The position numbers and the translations under genes were made by a program. Positions 13,721-21,244 of a stretch of DNA of 36,469 nt are shown in pieces. The notes beneath the pieces were generated by a model. The model did not search any database. It was given only the letters and a program-made list of their open reading frames with translations, and had not been told where the DNA came from. The DNA is taken from assembly GCA_029213065.1 (NCBI GenBank), contig JARGPH010000044.1, positions 3,786 through 40,254 on the forward strand, given 5' to 3'. The stretch's first letter is position 1. Each line of letters starts with the position of its first letter. The DNA is from Verrucomicrobiales bacterium. GTDB lineage: Bacteria > Verrucomicrobiota > Verrucomicrobiia > Verrucomicrobiales > DEV007.

Positions 13721-15076
13721 TCAGCCCAACTGCCCAACGCGACCGGTTGAATCGCCGAAACGCTCTTCTTTGACCCCGACGCGATCCATCACACTGAGGA
13801 ACAAATTACTCATCGGGGTGTCCTGGCCCAGATCCGTGTGGATCCCGGTTTTGATGGTGCCGCCACCCTGGCCCGCGACGAGAATCGGTAAATCTTCGTG
13901 ACGGTGACGATCCGGATCAGCAAGTCCGCTTCCCCAGACGATCATGGAGTTGTGCAAAAGCGTTTTACCGTCGGCATCTTTCTTCGACTTCAACCGCTCA
14001 AGGAAATAGGCGAGCTGCTGCGAGTAAAAATAATCGATCTTCGCAAGCTTTTCCATCAACTCAGGGTCCTTACGGTGGTGCGAAATGGTGTGGTGACCGT
14101 CCGGCACCCCGATTTCCTTGAAGCTCCGGTTACTGCCATCGTGGGCGAGGAGAAATGATGCCACGCGGGTTGAATCGGTTTCAAAGGCGAGGACGAGCAG
14201 ATCCATCATGAGTCGAATGTGATCTTCATAGGAACCCGGAACGCCATCCGGCATTGCCATTTCACCGGCGTCAGCGAGTCCAAACTTCTCAGCTTTTACA
14301 ATACGGTTCTCGATTTCACGAACGCCCGTCATGTATTCGTCGAGCTTGTGCTGATCGTTGCGGCCGAGCTGCTTATTGAGGATTCTCGCATCCTCCATCA
14401 CGAAATCGAGAATGGAACGCTGCTGTTCGTTTCGCAGAGCAAACCCCTTCTGACGCTCCTCCTTGCTACCGGTACCAAAAAGACGCTCAAAGACGTGCCT
14501 TGGATTGTATTCCGGCGTCATTGGAGTGACATCGGAACGCCACGAGAGATTGAACTGATAAGCGCAGGAGTAACCGGAATCACAAACGCCACTCTTCCGC
14601 ACGCCATCGCAGGAAAGCTCGAGTGAGGAGAGACGAGTGAGATCACCAATATTGCGGGCGATGACCTGATCGACCGAGACACCCAGTTTAATGTCAGCTC
14701 CGGCAGTTTTGCGAGGGCGGGCACCGGTCAGGAAGGAAGCATTGGCGCGTGCGTGATCACCACCACCATCTCCTCCCGAGGTTCCATTCTGATGCTCGAA
14801 CTTGCTGAAGAGATGAATATCTGACTTATACTTCGCGAATGGCTCCTGCGTTTTATTGAACTGATAGTCCGCTCCGGTTCCGGTTACGGTCCATTTATCA
14901 ATATTAACGCCGTTCGGTTTGTAGAGGAATGCGGTCCGCAGGGGCATGCCTGACGCCGTCGTCGCGAGCTTTCCACCCTCTGCGGCTGCAGCAGTGCCCG
15001 GGAGGAAAGTCTCAAAAACCGGCAGCGAAAGACTCGCTCCGACTCCTCTCAAAAAGTTACGGCGATCAGTGTTCAT
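13721..15076 (-). CDS. DUF1552 secreted protein with Tat-type leader
   Basis: This 451-residue protein begins MNTDRRNFLRGVGASLSLP, with a twin-arginine motif (RRNFLRG) and a hydrophobic leader. The body matches the DUF1552 family of Planctomycetes and Verrucomicrobia: MPLRTAFLYKPNGVN near the start, SFLTGARPRKT, SLELSCDGVRKSGVCDSGYSCAYQ, LGRNDQHKLDEYM in the middle, and MIVWGSGLADPDRHRHEDLPILVAGQGGG near the end. The late HRHEDLP segment and several conserved Asp/His residues recall the alkaline-phosphatase/sulfatase-like fold of the related DUF1501 group, but no activity is proven. DUF1552 genes usually pair with large DUF1592/DUF1588 cytochrome proteins. Here the upstream neighbour is instead a small di-heme cytochrome c, separated by 83-98 bases. 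Confidence 0.93.
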   Translation of the reverse strand: MNTDRRNFLRGVGASLSLPVFETFLPGTAAAAEGGKLATTASGMPLRTAFLYKPNGVNIDKWTVTGTGADYQFNKTQEPFAKYKSDIHLFSKFEHQNGTSGGDGGGDHARANASFLTGARPRKTAGADIKLGVSVDQVIARNIGDLTRLSSLELSCDGVRKSGVCDSGYSCAYQFNLSWRSDVTPMTPEYNPRHVFERLFGTGSKEERQKGFALRNEQQRSILDFVMEDARILNKQLGRNDQHKLDEYMTGVREIENRIVKAEKFGLADAGEMAMPDGVPGSYEDHIRLMMDLLVLAFETDSTRVASFLLAHDGSNRSFKEIGVPDGHHTISHHRKDPELMEKLAKIDYFYSQQLAYFLERLKSKKDADGKTLLHNSMIVWGSGLADPDRHRHEDLPILVAGQGGGTIKTGIHTDLGQDTPMSNLFLSVMDRVGVKEERFGDSTGRVGQLG

Positions 15077-15174
15077 GGGAAAAATCAGTTAAGGAACAGG
15101 TGTTTACTAATGACAGGATACGACTGTGATTCGTTCAAACAATTAACGCGATTAGGTGCAATATCCGCCCCTAA

Positions 15175-15960
15175 TTAGTCATCCGCGGGGAGAGACTGAA
15201 TATACGCGACAAGATCCCAGATCGATTCGGCATCCAGAATGTCATGAAAACCAATCATCGGCGTGCCATTGAGGCCGGTGGCAACGGTGCGAAAGATGTC
15301 TTCGGGGGTGTCTCCGGACTTGTGATGCGGTCCGGAAAGATCAGCGGGGACAATGGGATGCTCCCAGATATCGATCAATCCAACACTGGCAGGCCCGTCG
15401 CCCTTCCCTTTCTCGCCATGACAGGACACACAATTCACCGCGAACAATGCCTTCCCCTTCTTCACCCGGAGCTTTTTCGCATCCGCATCCCCATACCACT
15501 CGGGACGCGGGGCCAGCGCAATCGGTTCTGCCTTCAGTTCCTCGTCATCCCATTTTCGGGACAGGTTCTGCAAATAGACAATCAGCGCTCCGACATCGTC
15601 GTCGGAAAAGTCTTTAAAAAAGGGCATCGCCGTCCCCGAAATCCCGCTGCGAATCGTCCGCCGCACATCAGCCTCCACCGGCAGTTTTCCGAACGGGGTA
15701 GTCCTGAACTTAAAGACCCCCACCCTGAAATTCCGGGGTTTGTCTTTCAAATCCGCCGCCCAGGGACCGTCACCGCGACCCGTTTCCCCGTGACAGGTCG
15801 TGCAATGTTTCTGAAAAAGATAGCGCCCCTTCAGATACTGATGCAGCTCCTGACGCCTCGCTTCATCCCCCTTCTCTGACCTCGCGGCAACTGGTGCAGA
15901 CAAGACGGCACAAAAGAAAAGAGCGAGCACCCCCGAAGTAGATTTGAAGCCTGATAGCAT
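15175..15960 (-). CDS. Secreted di-heme c-type cytochrome
   Basis: Two c-heme sites are visible. CTTCH and CVSCH are at residues 53-57 and 177-181 counted from the chosen start, each followed by a GxGDG loop. Candidate Met sixth ligands are in GTAMPFF and GTPMIGF. I prefer ATG 15960 (261 residues, signal MLSGFKSTSGVLALFF...) because GGAGA lies about eight bases upstream. ATG 15975 is also possible and adds five residues. Two tandem class I cytochrome domains of about 100 residues each suggest a periplasmic electron shuttle. It sits between the FtsK-type ATPase gene (90-105 base gap) and the DUF1552 gene, so it may pass electrons for the latter; that is inference. Confidence 0.9.
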   Translation of the reverse strand: MLSGFKSTSGVLALFFCAVLSAPVAARSEKGDEARRQELHQYLKGRYLFQKHCTTCHGETGRGDGPWAADLKDKPRNFRVGVFKFRTTPFGKLPVEADVRRTIRSGISGTAMPFFKDFSDDDVGALIVYLQNLSRKWDDEELKAEPIALAPRPEWYGDADAKKLRVKKGKALFAVNCVSCHGEKGKGDGPASVGLIDIWEHPIVPADLSGPHHKSGDTPEDIFRTVATGLNGTPMIGFHDILDAESIWDLVAYIQSLPADD

Positions 15961-16065
15961 ATCTCGAATCTCCATGACCTTCGCCGATTCCGCCGTGCAT
16001 TACTTGTTAAGTGTCATGCATTTCTTTCGAATCGACTGAAAATCAAACCCCGTTTGGCAAACCGG

Positions 16066-19000
16066 TCAACCCCGGAACCAGTCGAGAGACGGCTGCGCAA
16101 AGGGACGGAAAATCTCGTTCTCGCCGGACGGCTCATCGTAGAACAGGGCACGGTTTAATCCGAGATCTGACGCTTTCCCTGTATCGATCAAACTCGCCGA
16201 ATCGGCCGCACTCATTTGAAAGAGAACCTTCTTCTCAAACTCCCCGGCAGCCTTCCGTCCGAGGGTGCGCTGGACACTGTTGTAGGAATCGAGCGATGCA
16301 ACAAGGTGATAGCCCCAACCGGGCCCTTCGCTAATGAGATCATGAAGCGAGGCGGAGGCTTTCGCCCCGGTATCCTCCTCCAGCGAGAAGCTGAAATCCT
16401 CCTCGTGGCGCAGCTTTTTGTATCGGTGTAAACCCGGGATAAAAAGAATCGTCGTTTTCGAAGAGGCCGGTGACTCCCCTTCGGAAACCAATTTCATTTC
16501 CGCTGCGAGAGAGTTGATCACGCTCTCCATTTCGTGCATCGCAGGAGTTTCCACATGACCCACTGCCCTGACAGCCTCACAAAACCAAGTCTTGTCATCG
16601 GGCTGAGAGAACCGGTTGTCGATCACAATGAGCCGCACTTTCTCAGCTTGCTCGGCCCTGAGAACGCGCAACGACACCGCCACAAACGAATCCATGACAT
16701 CATCCCGCTGGCCAACAACGATCAAGTTTGCACCGCTCTGCCGCGAGAGACGCACTTCCGTCGGTCCCTTGATCGCATTCGGAGCACCTAGGAAAAACCG
16801 GGGAACGGTCGAAGCCTCGACATCGGGTCCACCTTCAACGATGCGTTGAATCACCCTGTCCTCCTCTATCTTCGCCGGCGCATTACCTTCAAAAATGACA
16901 CGCTCAGTCGGTTCGATCCCCTGCTCTTTTGCGAGCCTCTCGACATCGACAAGATAGCCGTTTCTCTCCTCTTCACCGAGCCACACCACCTGAAACGGTG
17001 AATTGGCTTCGATCGCTCCGGCTCTGTCGTTGTAAATACCTTCACCGGGTCGAGTCAACATCCTCGGGGCCGGGTTCGAATCGTCCATAATCAAATAGGC
17101 GTCCGCCTCGTTACAGGCCAGCGCGATACGAACCGTCATTTGCCCGAGAGTCGCTCTCGCCAGCGTAAACGCTCCGCCGAGGGTCTGTGACCCTAACACC
17201 GCATGAATTCCAAAGGCACGTCCCTGTCTCACAATCCGGTCAAGCAACACCGCCGCCTGCTGCGAGATCTGATCGTCTTCGGTGAAAAACTCCTGAAATT
17301 CATCGATGAGAAGCAAGGTTCTCGGCATCGCAATCCCGCCGGGAACCTTGCGATAGGAGGCAACATCCTGCACTCCTGCGGCACGGAACAGCTCACCGCG
17401 TCGTTTCAATTCATCATCGAGTCGCTGGAGAACACTGAGCCCGAACTCGCGGTCACTTTCGATCGCGACCACCCTCGCATGAGGCAGCAGATGATCCGCG
17501 TAACACTTGAACTCGACCCCTTTCTTAAAGTCGATCAGATAAAATTCCACCTCGTTGGGGTCACACCACAACGCGAGATTGGTGATCATGATGTGGAACA
17601 GGGTCGATTTACCCGAACCGGTTTTTCCGGCGATGAGGGCATGCTGACAAGTGCCTTTCCCGAGGGCGAGTTCCTGCAATTTCGTCGCTCCGCTCCTCCC
17701 GATCGGGACTCTCAATTCCGCAGCTGTCGAAGAGCTCCAGCGTTGCCCTTCCGGAGGGGCAATAAAGGAAAATGGAACCTCAATCCGGTTCGAATCACGA
17801 TTTGCTTCACCGATTCGATGCACCCATTTCGCAAAAAGATCCTGAGGTGGCGCTTCGTTCAACATCAACTCTGAGCCCGCAACCGGATTGTCCTTCAGGA
17901 AAAAGCCATCGGCATTGCTTCTCACGCAAAGCGTGGCCTTGCGAATATCGTCCATCTGAAAACCGGTCGGCAATTCGGCACGCTGATCGCAATGCATCAA
18001 TAGAAACACACCGCACCGGGCACCCGAAGCAGCAATGCTGAGCAACCGCGTCACCGCGAGGTCTGAGAAACCGTGAGGAAAGTCTGCCACTACCAGAAAA
18101 TGATACCGCTCCGCGATCGTGCCGGCTGCCTCATTGTATTGCGTGATCGTCTCGTAATCGCTGCGCAGATACATTTGGATCACCTTTTCCATGTGATCAC
18201 ATAGCTCCCCGAGGCGTTGCTCAATCTGCTCGGACTGGGTCCGGATGCGGGTATTGATCAGAATCTCCTCGTAGTCGGCGAGGTGCATGAGACCGGCAAA
18301 GCTTTCCCCCAACCCTACCGGATCAACCAGGGAAAAGGACACACGTCCCGCAGGCGCTCCCGTAAGCCAGCCAAGAACGAGGTAGTTCAAAAACGATATC
18401 GCCTTCTCCCGTCCGAAGTTTTTTGTCTCGAGAAGGATTGATCCCTGATCAGGAATGCGAAGGCGAAGCGGCACCGAGTAATCCGGCTCTGAAGGAAGCG
18501 TAAAACGCTCCGATGCAGGGAGTTTCAGCTCGGCTGCCTCCGCCGAATAACGAACCTGTGCGATGGGCAAAGCCTCGCGGAACGCAGCCGGCGGGCTCCA
18601 TTCCTCCGGAGCGCCCACCAGCGGAGAGCCATCCTCCGACGCCTCCTCTCTCACGAGAACTTCGTGAACGGGAACGAGCGATACAGCCCATTGCTCGACC
18701 ATGGCATCAAACTGCCCCTCGAGATCATCAGAACTTCCTCCACCACCTTCCGAGAGCGCGGCGACGCGCTCATCTTTAATTGCCGTCAATTCGGCTGAGG
18801 CCGCATCGAGTTTGGCATTGATAGAGTCGATCCGATTCTGAGCGGCCGTTTCAAGCCGTCCTCTTATCTGATGCGCCCGGGCCTCCACTTCATCGGGCCC
18901 CGCATATTTCAAACTGCTGTCCGCTTCGGCGGTCGAATCTTTGATCCCTGCATCAAACGCCTTTTTGATTTTGAGATAAGCCGCATCCGCTTCCTCCATT

Positions 19001-19905
19001 GCTTTCTCCTGCCCCTTCGCGATTCCCCCTTTGAGCTGAAGGCGCGCCTGCTTTGCTTCGATAAAATCCGCGAGGACGGCATCAAGAAACTTCTGTGCCT
19101 TGACCCGTCCCAGAACAAACATCACCCCGAGAATAAGGGCACCTCCGACGCCTGCAGCAACACCGTATAGCGTTGGAACTTGCGGCCCACCCAGCGCCTG
19201 CACGGTGAAAGGCATTGCGCCTCCCAATGCGAGAACTCCCAGAATCTGAACGGCAGCAGGAATACCCCGAAACCAGCCCGCGAAAGGTGATTTTCGAAAC
19301 GCTGCCACCTCGGAGGCGAGCCCCTTGTATCGGTTGGAAAGCGCTTCGGGATCAATCTCGCCCCCGGTCGGTTTGGCCTCTTTTAATCCGGCAATCAGCG
19401 TCTTCCTCAATGTCTGGTAACCCCCAAGACTCTTCACCGCTTTCTTCTCCAGCTTCAGGGCGGCATTGTGAATCGAAATGGACTTCTTCCGTCTCTCCTC
19501 AAACTCCGACTCGATCTGACTGACCCGGGCGCTTCGCGTTTTCCCTGCCTGCATGAACTCGCGCTGAAGCGCGCCGCGTCGACCGCCGATGACCGCCTGA
19601 ATCTGAGCAACCACTTCGTTGCGGACTCGAATCTGCGCCTGGTCGACCCTCACCTTCCGCCCCGCCAGGACGCGGGCAACCTGAGCCGCATCCGCTTCAG
19701 CTTTTTCGCGCAATTTTGAAATCGCAACGGCGCACTCTTTCTCAATAGCAGCCTTATCTTCGGCGAGGCTCTGGCGCAAACTGGAGTCACGCAACTGACG
19801 TGCTTTACTGAGACCGATCTCGCGATCGGCGAAAGACCTGATCCCCGAAGTGACCTCCTCGAGTGCCTTGAGTGTTTCCCCTGCTGATAAAGATCTAGCT
19901 TTCAC
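16066..19905 (-). CDS. FtsK/SpoIIIE-type ATPase of a type VII-like (EssC/EccC-like) system
   Basis: A 1279-residue protein with a GTG start at 19905 that overlaps the stop of the preceding small gene by 11 bases. Layout: charged coiled coil (about 5-160), membrane hairpin (about 215-237 and 245-266), second coiled coil (about 270-385), then three RecA-like regions. The first (about 475-700) lacks a Walker A motif but has FLVVADFP. The second (about 705-985) has a canonical Walker A GKTGSGKST (760-768), Walker B LLLIDEFQEFF (864-874) and LGSQTLGG. The third (about 1035-1260) is degenerate, with VVGQRDD and LFIPGLHRY in place of the Walker motifs. Three tandem FtsK/SpoIIIE modules beside WXG100 genes are the mark of EssC/EccC. 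Unlike EssC there are no FHA domains. Unlike FtsK there is no four-helix membrane domain and no gamma DNA-reading domain at the end. Confidence 0.9.
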   Translation of the reverse strand: MKARSLSAGETLKALEEVTSGIRSFADREIGLSKARQLRDSSLRQSLAEDKAAIEKECAVAISKLREKAEADAAQVARVLAGRKVRVDQAQIRVRNEVVAQIQAVIGGRRGALQREFMQAGKTRSARVSQIESEFEERRKKSISIHNAALKLEKKAVKSLGGYQTLRKTLIAGLKEAKPTGGEIDPEALSNRYKGLASEVAAFRKSPFAGWFRGIPAAVQILGVLALGGAMPFTVQALGGPQVPTLYGVAAGVGGALILGVMFVLGRVKAQKFLDAVLADFIEAKQARLQLKGGIAKGQEKAMEEADAAYLKIKKAFDAGIKDSTAEADSSLKYAGPDEVEARAHQIRGRLETAAQNRIDSINAKLDAASAELTAIKDERVAALSEGGGGSSDDLEGQFDAMVEQWAVSLVPVHEVLVREEASEDGSPLVGAPEEWSPPAAFREALPIAQVRYSAEAAELKLPASERFTLPSEPDYSVPLRLRIPDQGSILLETKNFGREKAISFLNYLVLGWLTGAPAGRVSFSLVDPVGLGESFAGLMHLADYEEILINTRIRTQSEQIEQRLGELCDHMEKVIQMYLRSDYETITQYNEAAGTIAERYHFLVVADFPHGFSDLAVTRLLSIAASGARCGVFLLMHCDQRAELPTGFQMDDIRKATLCVRSNADGFFLKDNPVAGSELMLNEAPPQDLFAKWVHRIGEANRDSNRIEVPFSFIAPPEGQRWSSSTAAELRVPIGRSGATKLQELALGKGTCQHALIAGKTGSGKSTLFHIMITNLALWCDPNEVEFYLIDFKKGVEFKCYADHLLPHARVVAIESDREFGLSVLQRLDDELKRRGELFRAAGVQDVASYRKVPGGIAMPRTLLLIDEFQEFFTEDDQISQQAAVLLDRIVRQGRAFGIHAVLGSQTLGGAFTLARATLGQMTVRIALACNEADAYLIMDDSNPAPRMLTRPGEGIYNDRAGAIEANSPFQVVWLGEEERNGYLVDVERLAKEQGIEPTERVIFEGNAPAKIEEDRVIQRIVEGGPDVEASTVPRFFLGAPNAIKGPTEVRLSRQSGANLIVVGQRDDVMDSFVAVSLRVLRAEQAEKVRLIVIDNRFSQPDDKTWFCEAVRAVGHVETPAMHEMESVINSLAAEMKLVSEGESPASSKTTILFIPGLHRYKKLRHEEDFSFSLEEDTGAKASASLHDLISEGPGWGYHLVASLDSYNSVQRTLGRKAAGEFEKKVLFQMSAADSASLIDTGKASDLGLNRALFYDEPSGENEIFRPFAQPSLDWFRG

Positions 19906-20110
19906 AATCGTTTCGTAATTTCTTCAGCAATTTCTCAAGATCATCCACCGCAAGACCGGCATTCTCGACCGATTCAAAAAGCGGCTGCATGTAGGTCTTG
20001 TCGAACTCACGCCCCTTCTGATCCCGCCATACTTCCTGTGTCTCCTGCCACGAACGCAACAGTTCACGTGTTAGGCCTGAGAGGCGACTGCGATTGGAAT
20101 TTAAACTCAT
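19895..20110 (-). CDS. Tiny WXG100-like helical protein
   Basis: A 71-residue, highly charged helical protein starting MSLNSNRSRLSGLTREL. Around the expected hairpin turn it has VWRDQKGREF (27-36). This is the same W-x-D-x5-F spacing as in the larger WXG100-like protein encoded two genes upstream, and the same Trp-to-Phe spacing as the WxG-x5-F core of classical Esx proteins. It is shorter than the usual 95-100 residues, mainly in the first helix. Its stop (19895-19897) lies inside the ATPase gene and its start is three bases after the coiled-coil gene, so the three are probably translationally coupled. It is plausibly an Esx-like partner or a dedicated chaperone of the ATPase. The sequence match is short, so the family call is tentative. 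Confidence 0.75.
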   Translation of the reverse strand: MSLNSNRSRLSGLTRELLRSWQETQEVWRDQKGREFDKTYMQPLFESVENAGLAVDDLEKLLKKLRNDCES

Positions 20111-20113
20111 TTA

Positions 20114-20593
20114 TCAGAGAGCGTCGCCTGAGCCATAGGCGTTCAAATTTTTGACCGATTCTGCAAGAAAGGTATTCGCCCTCTTCATATCGATGTCGAG
20201 GAAATGCCTCAGCTTCTCCACTTTTCGCGCCTCTGTCTCCACAACGGAGTCGTAATTTCGCAACCACCCCGCAACGGCCCGGATTCGCTCCTCCAACTCG
20301 CGAATTTCACGACGTTGCTTATTAATCTGCATTTGTGCGCCCGTTTTGGACGACTCAAGTTTTGAAAGCCTCGCGCTGAACATCTCCTGCTCGAGTTGCT
20401 CCAACTTCCGCTGCCGGCGTTTCATCTCATGCTGGAGCGCGAGTTTCTGGTCGCTCTGCAGCCAGATGCGGGTGCGTTTCACTTCCTCACTGACCTCGTC
20501 GAGGACCGAATTAAGCCGCTCCACATACACAGCAAGAGTCGCCCGAAATCGTTCGAGAGCCTCAACATCGCTGACATGTGCCTTATCCGCCAC
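20114..20593 (-). CDS. Coiled-coil protein of the type VII-like locus
   Basis: A 159-residue protein with a GTG start (encoding MADKAHVSDVEAL...). It is almost entirely predicted coiled coil. Heptad-like stretches run through residues about 10-45 (ALERFRATLAVYVERLNSVL) and 50-125 (MKRRQRKLEQLEQEMFSARL, then INKQRREIRELEERIR), ending in AYGSGDAL. It has no signal peptide, membrane segment or Cys. It lies 13 bases after the WXG100-like gene and three before the next small gene. Possible roles are a structural secretion component, a substrate with LXG-like N-terminal helices, or a chaperone. I do not recognise a named family. Confidence 0.8.
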   Translation of the reverse strand: MADKAHVSDVEALERFRATLAVYVERLNSVLDEVSEEVKRTRIWLQSDQKLALQHEMKRRQRKLEQLEQEMFSARLSKLESSKTGAQMQINKQRREIRELEERIRAVAGWLRNYDSVVETEARKVEKLRHFLDIDMKRANTFLAESVKNLNAYGSGDAL

Positions 20594-20606
20594 GGATGGA
20601 AAACGG

Positions 20607-20879
20607 TTAGCGTTGGCTCAGATAGTCCTCGATTCGCTGTGCTTTACGCAAAAGAAACGGCCCCTGCTGACTTGAGCTTTCAATAAAACGGCGAAGCGTT
20701 TTCATCGTGTCCTGGAAATCCTGCGCGAACTTCACGTGCTCATGATCCTGCCAGGTATCACTCAAGGCCGAAAAGCGGGCCTGAAGAGATGACATCGAGT
20801 TTTGCATATCGCCATTGAACCGCTTCAGTTCCTCGGCAAATCGACGCAATTCATTCGGATCTACTATCGCTTTTGACAT
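20607..20879 (-). CDS. WXG100-family (Esx-like) small protein
   Basis: A 90-residue helical-hairpin protein. Helix 1 covers about residues 8-38 and the turn carries SDTWQDHEHVKF (40-51, Trp43). Helix 2 runs about 48-67, followed by an extra helix FLLRKAQRIEDYL. The size, the central Trp, the absence of Cys or a signal peptide, and the W-x(D/G)-x5-F core fit the WXG100 superfamily, in which this WQD variant is familiar to me from Planctomycetes-type sequences. WXG100 proteins are small dimeric substrates or co-substrates of type VII secretion. There is no Y-x3-D/E export signal near the C-terminus. It is the first small gene of the locus, 50 bases after the DUF4404-like gene. Confidence 0.88.
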   Translation of the reverse strand: MSKAIVDPNELRRFAEELKRFNGDMQNSMSSLQARFSALSDTWQDHEHVKFAQDFQDTMKTLRRFIESSSQQGPFLLRKAQRIEDYLSQR

Positions 20880-20929
20880 AGTTGAAAGCTATCAGGAATA
20901 GGATTCTCCGACAACCTTATACTCATCTC

Positions 20930-21244
20930 TCAAAGACCTATCGACGCGAAAGCACTCGCCATGCGACCAATCACCAAAGTTACGGCGGGATGATCCTCTT
21001 CCCAATCTTTGATCTGCTCCTTCAGCTGAGACCACCTCCCCGCAAGAACGCCCTCTTTCGATGCGGAAGCAGCCGCTGCATTCGCGGTTGTCTCGCGAAA
21101 GGTGGTTCTCACGACCCCGACCTCCGGATGGGATTCGATCTCGTCAAGGGCCTCCTCCAGCGAAGCCAAAGCGTCCGCCGTTTCACCGTCCAGAGCCCCT
21201 ATCGCTTCAAGCGCATCGCGCATTTCTTTCACTTCGTCTCTCAT
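20930..21244 (-). CDS. DUF4404-like small protein
   Basis: I chose ATG 21244 (104 residues, MRDEVKEMRDALEAIGALDG...). The open frame extends 17 codons upstream, but that part overlaps the end of the cytochrome gene. The protein is helical with a conserved-looking end, WEEDHPAVTLVIGRMASAFASIGL. This matches the DUF4404 pattern of a short coiled coil followed by a xxHPxLxxxxxRxxxxLxxMGI-type tail. The function is unknown. It is 19 bases after the cytochrome gene and 50 bases before the WXG100-like gene, all in one direction, so it may be co-transcribed with the secretion-like locus. Confidence 0.72.
   Translation of the reverse strand: MRDEVKEMRDALEAIGALDGETADALASLEEALDEIESHPEVGVVRTTFRETTANAAAASASKEGVLAGRWSQLKEQIKDWEEDHPAVTLVIGRMASAFASIGL

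Follow-up and report, generated by a model that had tools for sequence, protein, structure and literature searches.

A conserved four-gene WXG100 and EccC-like ATPase cassette of Verrucomicrobiota, putatively a minimal type VII-like translocation system

Introduction

Can a bacterium with two membranes carry a stand-alone protein translocation machine built from type VII secretion parts? This question is raised by a minus-strand locus at positions 16066–21244 of a 36,469-nucleotide window (the whole stretch of DNA analysed) on contig JARGPH010000044.1 of Verrucomicrobiales bacterium, assembly GCA_029213065.1. A preliminary description of this DNA read five adjacent genes there as an under-described type VII-like secretion locus. 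Type VII secretion is usually portrayed as Gram-positive; the type VII secretion system (T7SS) consists of EccB-C-D-E in the T7SSa and of EssA-B-C, EsaA, and YukD in the T7SSb. Here, we describe a four-gene cassette, encoding the proteins WXG90, CC159, and WDF71 and an EccC-like ATPase, which is real, conserved, and, as the preliminary description fairly judged, under-described. From sequence-based evidence, we read it as a putative stand-alone, minimal type VII-like protein translocation cassette, an interpretation to which we give roughly even credence.

Results

A four-gene cassette conserved across the phylum

All five open reading frames of the preliminary description are present, separated, as it reported, by gaps of 50, 13, and 3 bases and joined at the end by an 11-base overlap. 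The features of the locus are as follows.

20607–20879, minus strand: WXG90, 90 residues, WXG100-family protein with W43-Q-D45-x5-F51 instead of W-x-G
20114–20593, minus strand: CC159, predicted single long helical hairpin (residues 7–76 and 80–154) without a catalytic domain
19895–20110, minus strand: WDF71, 71 residues, with W28-R-D30-x5-F36
16066–19905, minus strand: ATPase, 1279 residues, assigned by Pfam FtsK_SpoIIIE, model and fold matches, and tree
19102–19290, minus strand: membrane hairpin of the ATPase, about residues 206–268, two hydrophobic segments
17602–17628, minus strand: Walker A GKTGSGKST of the sole intact nucleotide-binding module, from sequence and conserved columns
17296–17316, minus strand: Walker B LLLIDEF, from sequence and conserved columns
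20930–21244, minus strand: DUF4404 gene, ATG at 21244 with the frame open to 21295, a neighbour outside the cassette

After duplicate removal 100 distinct loci were available, of which 92 had at least 1.2 kb upstream and the eight with less were left out. The order WXG90, CC159, WDF71, ATPase on one strand is kept in 87 of these 92. The full set is incomplete in the other five (L049, L055, L060, L109, and L138), among which L060 is a TerY-P-type relative, omitted as distant from the hairpin count, the motif counts, and the 27-row ATPase alignment. Most relatives from named genomes, taking the best 80 of at least 280, carry titles of Verrucomicrobiota lineages. Record titles other than Verrucomicrobiota, given as deposited, are "bacterium" (L080 and L123), "Bacteroidetes" (L100), "PVC group" (L108), and "Omnitrophota" (L119). 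Within the same taxonomic order, a close ATPase was found in 30 of 56 genomes, and within the genus in 21 of 33 (our own count, several loci being cut by contig ends); the remaining genomes of the order gave FtsK-like ATPase matches only, or none.

The two upstream genes also occur together. Among 383 genomes drawn evenly from the phylum, 27 hold WXG90, 26 hold CC159, and 25 hold both, which lie 4 to 283 bases apart in every one of the 25 (hypergeometric P about 1e-35, shared descent ignored). The genomes with WXG90 only (G240 and G398) carry a variant, and the one with CC159 only (G292) gives a weak match inside a 504-residue frame. The source genome itself holds one match each for WXG90, WDF71, and CC159 and no further copy of WXG100, WDF71, or CC159 at E ≤ 0.001; raising the limit to 10 adds a single WDF71 match (E 0.3), which falls in sequence interrupted by stop codons. 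Compared with four genus-mates, each of the four cassette genes, including the 71-codon WDF71, differs mainly at the third positions of codons. This third-position bias, together with the phylum-wide gene order, indicates that the four genes are real beyond chance.

The 104-residue product of the fifth gene passes Pfam DUF4404 (32.0 bits versus a cut-off of 27), as the preliminary description had supposed. The gene was rejected as a fifth component, since the 87 further distinct loci that have WXG90 and at least 500 bases beyond it all lack the gene; an earlier sample had it in 1 of 32 loci, several of these being contig ends. The type VII-like assignment was right in kind and one gene too wide, and conservation as a set in relatives holds for the four genes and not for the DUF4404 gene, which is only a neighbour. 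The five neighbours in the window that were scanned with Pfam encode cytochrome c, DUF1552, and spermine-synthase-like proteins and one protein with no family over cut-off, and include no nuclease, VWA, PP2C, kinase, or TerY-P gene.

Beyond the window, flanking genes of 99 loci were clustered. The 13 most frequent flank families include no conserved cargo or immunity gene, and no VWA, PP2C, kinase, nuclease, relaxase, or integrase is evident among them. At two loci, extra open frames lie between CC159 and WDF71 (L048 12083–12947 and L090 3063–3966); those of L090 look toxin-antitoxin-like by eye and were rejected as cargo.

Two small proteins with a W-x-D turn

The 90-residue protein was proposed to be WXG100-like, and it indeed passes Pfam WXG100 (32.7 bits versus 27.3), while staying below the cut-off of NCBIfam TIGR03930 (27.8 versus 44.85 bits). 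Among solved structures, the nearest is Helicobacter pylori HP0062 (3fx7, E 5.3e-12), followed by EsxB entries such as 4j42 at about 1e-6. HP0062 is described as a hairpin dimer in which W-R-D replaces WXG and whose gene neighbours an FtsK/SpoIIIE gene (PMC3397514), and it is counted among the structural homologues of Esx proteins (PMC3843698).

The W-x-G turn typical of the WXG100 family is replaced in the same way in the cassette: W-x-D-x5-[FY] is found in all 88 WXG90 copies labelled in cassette loci and in all 93 copies of WDF71. WDF71 passed no Pfam family. Because this motif is common to both proteins, WDF71 is probably a second, shortened WXG100-like partner, as judged from sequence. 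An iterated hidden Markov model joins WDF71 to WXG90, and the profile-profile comparison of the two is weak (probability 14%).

An EccC-like ATPase with one intact motor

The ATPase was described as of FtsK/SpoIIIE type, with three modules and a membrane hairpin, and each of these points was borne out. It passes Pfam FtsK_SpoIIIE (117.2 bits versus 24), shows hydrophobic segments from about residues 215 and 243, and folds in the model into three nucleotide-binding-like modules. The layout comprises an N-terminal coiled coil, the hairpin, a stalk, a degenerate EccC-DUF-like module (about 419–704), an active FtsK/EccC-type module (about 707–918), and a degenerate third module (about 971–1278). 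Across 27 aligned ATPases, including that of the window, Walker A and B are kept in the middle module only, the conservation line being read by eye.

EccC- and YukB-type profiles and Protein Data Bank (PDB) structures outscore FtsK for this protein. In NCBIfam, EccCa is the best match with 108 bits, followed by EccCb (88), EssC (86), and FtsK (30), all far below their equivalog cut-offs (509 bits for EccCa). The structural model (residues 200–1279) has a predicted local distance difference test score (pLDDT) of 78 and a predicted template modelling score (pTM) of 0.53. Its first module resembles the DUF domain of EccC5 (8rin, Z 15.1, 223 aligned residues, root-mean-square deviation (rmsd) 4.1), in a structural-alignment listing that leaves room for other families. 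Over the whole model, the best Foldseek match is EccC 4nh0 (E 2.5e-28), and superposition as one body is poor (template modelling score 0.31, rmsd 17). FtsK motors likewise give good alignments to portions of the model (Z about 22), which the common superfamily would predict. We favour reading the modules as DUF, nucleotide-binding domain (NBD) 1, and NBD2 with NBD3 missing, which leaves the protein one module short of EccC on our reading; PMC11090510 reads comparable ATPases as D1, D2, and D3.

A first hydrophobicity cut found two segments in 75 of 94 full-length cassette ATPases. By a looser, alignment-based cut, 83 have the hairpin, 10 lack it, and 1 is unsure; where missing, it is cleanly excised. 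The ATPases of L117, L120, L121, L124, L128, L133, L136, and L138, which have lost it, are 1214–1226 residues long. Upstream of L117, L120, L124, L128, and L133 lies a common frame of about 247 residues on the opposite strand, partly hydrophobic by eye.

The ATPase tree

A tree of the active module was built from 47 rows, in which labels such as FtsK (taken for the chromosomal FtsK of this phylum) and conjugation-type are our own. Cassettes (15 rows), TerY-P types (4), and variants (5) fall on one branch (support 100/99.7), the clade of the cassette ATPase thereby holding TerY-P/CoCoNuT-type, Helicobacter, and Rhodococcus relatives, with the cassette rows on a branch of their own (99/99). The clade therefore extends beyond Gram-negatives, Rhodococcus being an actinomycete. 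Another branch (98/91) is formed by the four FtsK rows together with one conjugation-type row of the two; the other conjugation-type row, unplaced on a very long branch, lies elsewhere, as do the second EccC domains, also on long branches. A grouping of the ATPase with FtsK was rejected on the tree and the NCBIfam and PDB scores. The preliminary description had expected a grouping with EccC/EssC, and the outcome is mixed: the ATPase stands apart from FtsK, in a clade of its own to which EccC/EssC is only weakly sister.

The row nearest the cassettes (97/90) comes from a Rhodococcus plasmid (L161 8591–14021), where genes for 314-residue, 73-residue, and WXG-like 87-residue proteins follow, with TerD genes after them. 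An ATPase relative covering 47% of the query occurs in a faecal record (L162) deposited as phage (MT836827.1, unverified), perhaps a mislabelled bacterial contig. Two further loci (L141 2834–4105 and L142 8554–9939) encode proteins of 423 and 461 residues with a C-terminal WXG100 domain, next to an ATPase of the cassette clade and Schlafen_AlbA_2-like genes.

The second slot is bare in the cassette and armed in its kin

The AlphaFold2 model of CC159 (pLDDT 87, pTM 0.59) shows a lone, long helical hairpin, and the tail of the protein is poorly conserved. The protein ends after the hairpin without a toxin domain, with no Pfam or NCBIfam family over cut-off and no LXG match. Fold searches with CC159 returned no match at E ≤ 0.001, matches to long hairpins being uninformative, and the profile-profile comparison with WXG90 is weak (7.5%). 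PADLOC matches of CC159 to DruC, LmuB, and other defence coils, at E 1e-4 or worse, were taken as coiled-coil noise, and that identity was rejected.

In related loci, the same slot is armed with a nuclease-like domain. On a plasmid of Helicobacter sp. NHP19-012, the genes run WXG, coiled coil with WHH/colicin-DNase nuclease, SUKH, a 77-residue protein, and ATPase; the WHH and colicin-DNase domains are over cut-off with the SUKH gene beside them, and the WXG protein stays below the Pfam cut-off (24.0 versus 27.3), while the WXG90 profile matches it at E 3e-21. According to PMC3482391, Tox-WHH goes together with T7SS export and Imm-SUKH, and Tox-ParB with T7SS. The coiled-coil proteins of L143, L060, L144, and a Caballeronia plasmid (L160) have a restriction endonuclease (REase)-like end with D and ExK by eye and no Pfam match. 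A ParB-like end is seen by eye in L145 and on the Rhodococcus plasmid, sub-threshold in Pfam for the former and without a match for the latter.

Several of these loci carry further conflict-type genes. VWA, PP2C, and kinase matches are over cut-off in L143; VWA, PP2C, and helicase are over cut-off in L060, with the kinase below; and the genes of L144 that were scanned include a CARF-nuclease and a kinase below cut-off. The annotation of the Caballeronia plasmid reads VWA, WXG, coiled coil, two small genes, ATPase, CARF gene, VWA, PP2C, kinase, and AAA. These four loci agree with the EssC-type extension reported for Type III-A CoCoNuTs by PMC11090510, which describes an REase-like domain on the coiled-coil protein of CoCoNuT-type loci and, citing Anantharaman 2012, a WXG100/FtsK operon that can stand alone as a secretion system elsewhere. 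(The content of Anantharaman 2012 and Sutcliffe 2011 is taken via PMC11090510 and PMC6471051.) In L144, the CARF-PDDEXK (Card1-like) nuclease gene (14775–16550, genome G221) lies directly after the ATPase of a TerY-P/CoCoNuT-type WXG cluster, and L160 has its CARF gene in the same position.

CC159 is linked to the nuclease-bearing coils by gene position, coiled-coil nature, and an N-terminal motif similar by eye. Profile-profile homology is weak, and the links among the small proteins and to these coils are carried by motif and gene position.

Discussion

Proposed mechanism and what supports it

If the cassette translocates protein, WXG90 and WDF71 would pack on CC159 to form a helical shaft, like the WXG100-like partners on the LXG domains of T7SSb, where small hairpins bundle with the long helical N-terminus of the toxin into a shaft (PMC10653861). 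The shaft would dock on an ATPase hexamer at the inner membrane, and ATP hydrolysis by the middle module could then move the shaft, or shaft-bound cargo encoded elsewhere, across that membrane. This model is supported by the WXG100 membership, the kinship with HP0062, the gene order, the EccC-like features and FtsK-distinct tree of the ATPase, the nucleases in the second slot of relatives, and the shaft precedent. The wider family probably handles toxic effectors, because the shaft-slot protein of relatives ends in a nuclease-like domain, once beside an immunity gene; the verrucomicrobial version, we propose, lost or never had a fused head.

Other observations weigh against translocation. None of the ten cassette genomes searched has YukD or YukC/EssB over cut-off, with a positive B. 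subtilis control, just as the preliminary description had noted for the locus; the nearest is a sub-threshold YukD match in G025 (25.1 versus 27 bits). The count for EccB, 0 of 10, is uninformative because no control genome was positive, and EccD, EccE, and mycosin are absent from the ten window genes scanned with Pfam, the rest of the genome not being searched. An outer-membrane partner did not emerge, and even the commonest flank family, which looks by eye like an ABC-transporter ATP-binding protein, occurs in just 11 of the 99 clustered loci. The YxxxD/E signal occurs in none of 88 WXG90 copies (last 20 residues) or 93 WDF71 copies (last 25), and at the conserved tyrosine of CC159 in only 13 of 91. 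Profile-profile comparison detects no homology between CC159 and the nuclease-bearing coils (0.3%), the six EccC/EssC-type rows are sister to the cassette ATPase clade at only 86/66, and relatives sit in defence-type loci. The hairpin is missing in 10 of 94 ATPases through three changes on the tree, two of them forced by strongly supported branches, and a pair of hydrophobic segments was not found in four TerY-P/CoCoNuT-type relatives. In four comparisons with dS (synonymous changes) saturated or undefined, WXG90 is the slowest (dN, nonsynonymous changes, 0.07–0.13) and the ATPase the fastest (0.31–0.36), and such slow change is odd for a released effector. Any wider reading also meets the finding of PMC3935865 that WXG100 targets are nearly restricted to Actinobacteria and Firmicutes, Chloroflexi contributing a few.

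Alternative explanations

Several of these observations would also suit an intracellular conflict or stress machine, in which an ATPase hexamer works in the cytosol, together with its coiled-coil and WXG partners, to counter damage or invading nucleic acid, the hairpin being a mere anchor. ATPase relatives in the same clade sit with VWA, PP2C, kinase, helicase, or CARF-nuclease genes, loci that PMC11090510 takes as restriction-type defence; the hairpin is dispensable in some lineages, presence in the phylum is patchy (27 of 383 genomes), and the best PADLOC match of the ATPase is SspH (87 bits, FtsK-like part only). However, nuclease or TerY-P genes are lacking from the scanned window neighbours and not evident in the 13 most frequent flank families, the small proteins match defence models weakly (E 1e-4 or worse), and 83 of 94 ATPases keep the hairpin. 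We regard such a machine as possible and rather unlikely.

A pump for DNA or nucleoprotein, related to FtsK or conjugation ATPases and using the small proteins as DNA-bound adaptors, would account for the FtsK_SpoIIIE family of the active module and the fit of an FtsK motor to parts of the model. It appears improbable given the separate branch of the FtsK rows and one conjugation-type row (the other unplaced), the NCBIfam and PDB scores favouring EccC and YukB, the EccC-DUF-like first module, and the 13 most frequent flank families being without an evident relaxase or integrase. That the locus is a chance neighbourhood of unrelated housekeeping genes, as applies to the DUF4404 gene, is hardly credible for the other four in view of their kept order and strand and the co-occurrence statistics given above.

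Beyond the translocation cassette itself, we tentatively suggest a third type VII class in two-membrane bacteria, defined by W-x-D proteins and a one-motor EccC-like ATPase, though we consider it doubtful. The class would be "headless" in Verrucomicrobiota, where its function would be that of an LXG-like shaft or an adaptor for unlinked cargo, and the hairpin losses might form a series from export machine to soluble intracellular weapon.

Significance and novelty

The cassette is a compact, phylum-wide set in a Gram-negative phylum, and offers a minimal set with which to ask what the core of the machine is and whether WXG100 proteins need export. It also bears on how secretion and anti-phage systems have shared type VII parts, for which lineages with and without the hairpin constitute a natural experiment. 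HP0062, whose structure was given in 2009 without a function, fits the same frame. Such a system is not new to Gram-negatives, since WXG100 proteins in Verrucomicrobiae, H. pylori HP0062/HP0066, and the WXG/FtsK modules of CoCoNuT/TerY-P loci are already in print, as are the design of the ATPase and WXG/FtsK operons that stand alone. The novelty lies in a cassette that spans the phylum, its pair of W-x-D proteins, a shaft that is bare, and the loss of the hairpin in some lineages; the literature searched, with most subscription papers outside it, contains no description of the verrucomicrobial four-gene cassette.

Comparison with known systems

With T7SSa and T7SSb, the cassette shares a WXG100 partner and the EccC/EssC-like order of hairpin, stalk, DUF-like module, and active module. 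It differs in showing none of the other core parts alongside, a sole intact motor, and no conserved YxxxD/E. The LXG toxins of T7SSb (EsaD-EsxBCD, Lap1/Lap2; PMC10653861) likewise have small hairpins encoded beside a long helical protein, whereas CC159 has neither a toxin head nor an LXG family match. A minimal core of ATPase and WXG100 also characterizes the T7SSc–j variants, which are described in Bacillota and Actinomycetota only, the main text containing no occurrence of Verrucomicrob- or Planctomyc- (PMC11217815).

H. pylori HP0062/HP0066 and the Helicobacter sp. NHP19-012 plasmid have a W-x-D WXG protein and an FtsK-type ATPase as well. A WXG100 secretion system of H. pylori and a TerY-P island containing WxG and FtsK are named by PMC4978471. 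HP0066, called FtsK, is listed as a two-hybrid partner of a universal stress protein (PMC11944479). The plasmid resembles the cassette in placing the WXG gene first and a small gene just before the ATPase, and differs in the nuclease in slot 2, the SUKH gene after it, and an ATPase of 823 residues with a much shorter N-terminus and one hydrophobic segment (residue 120) rather than a pair.

The Type III-A CoCoNuT/TerY-P module shares the WXG100 proteins, the coiled-coil protein, and one ATPase clade, its ATPase being EssC-like and three-modular, active at the centre alone, and preceded by a long N-terminal coiled coil. Unlike these loci, the cassette has no VWA, PP2C, kinase, or nuclease seen alongside, and CC159 is bare; its ATPase usually carries a membrane hairpin, which the CoCoNuT homologues lack according to PMC11090510, and the cassette forms a four-gene unit across Verrucomicrobiota.

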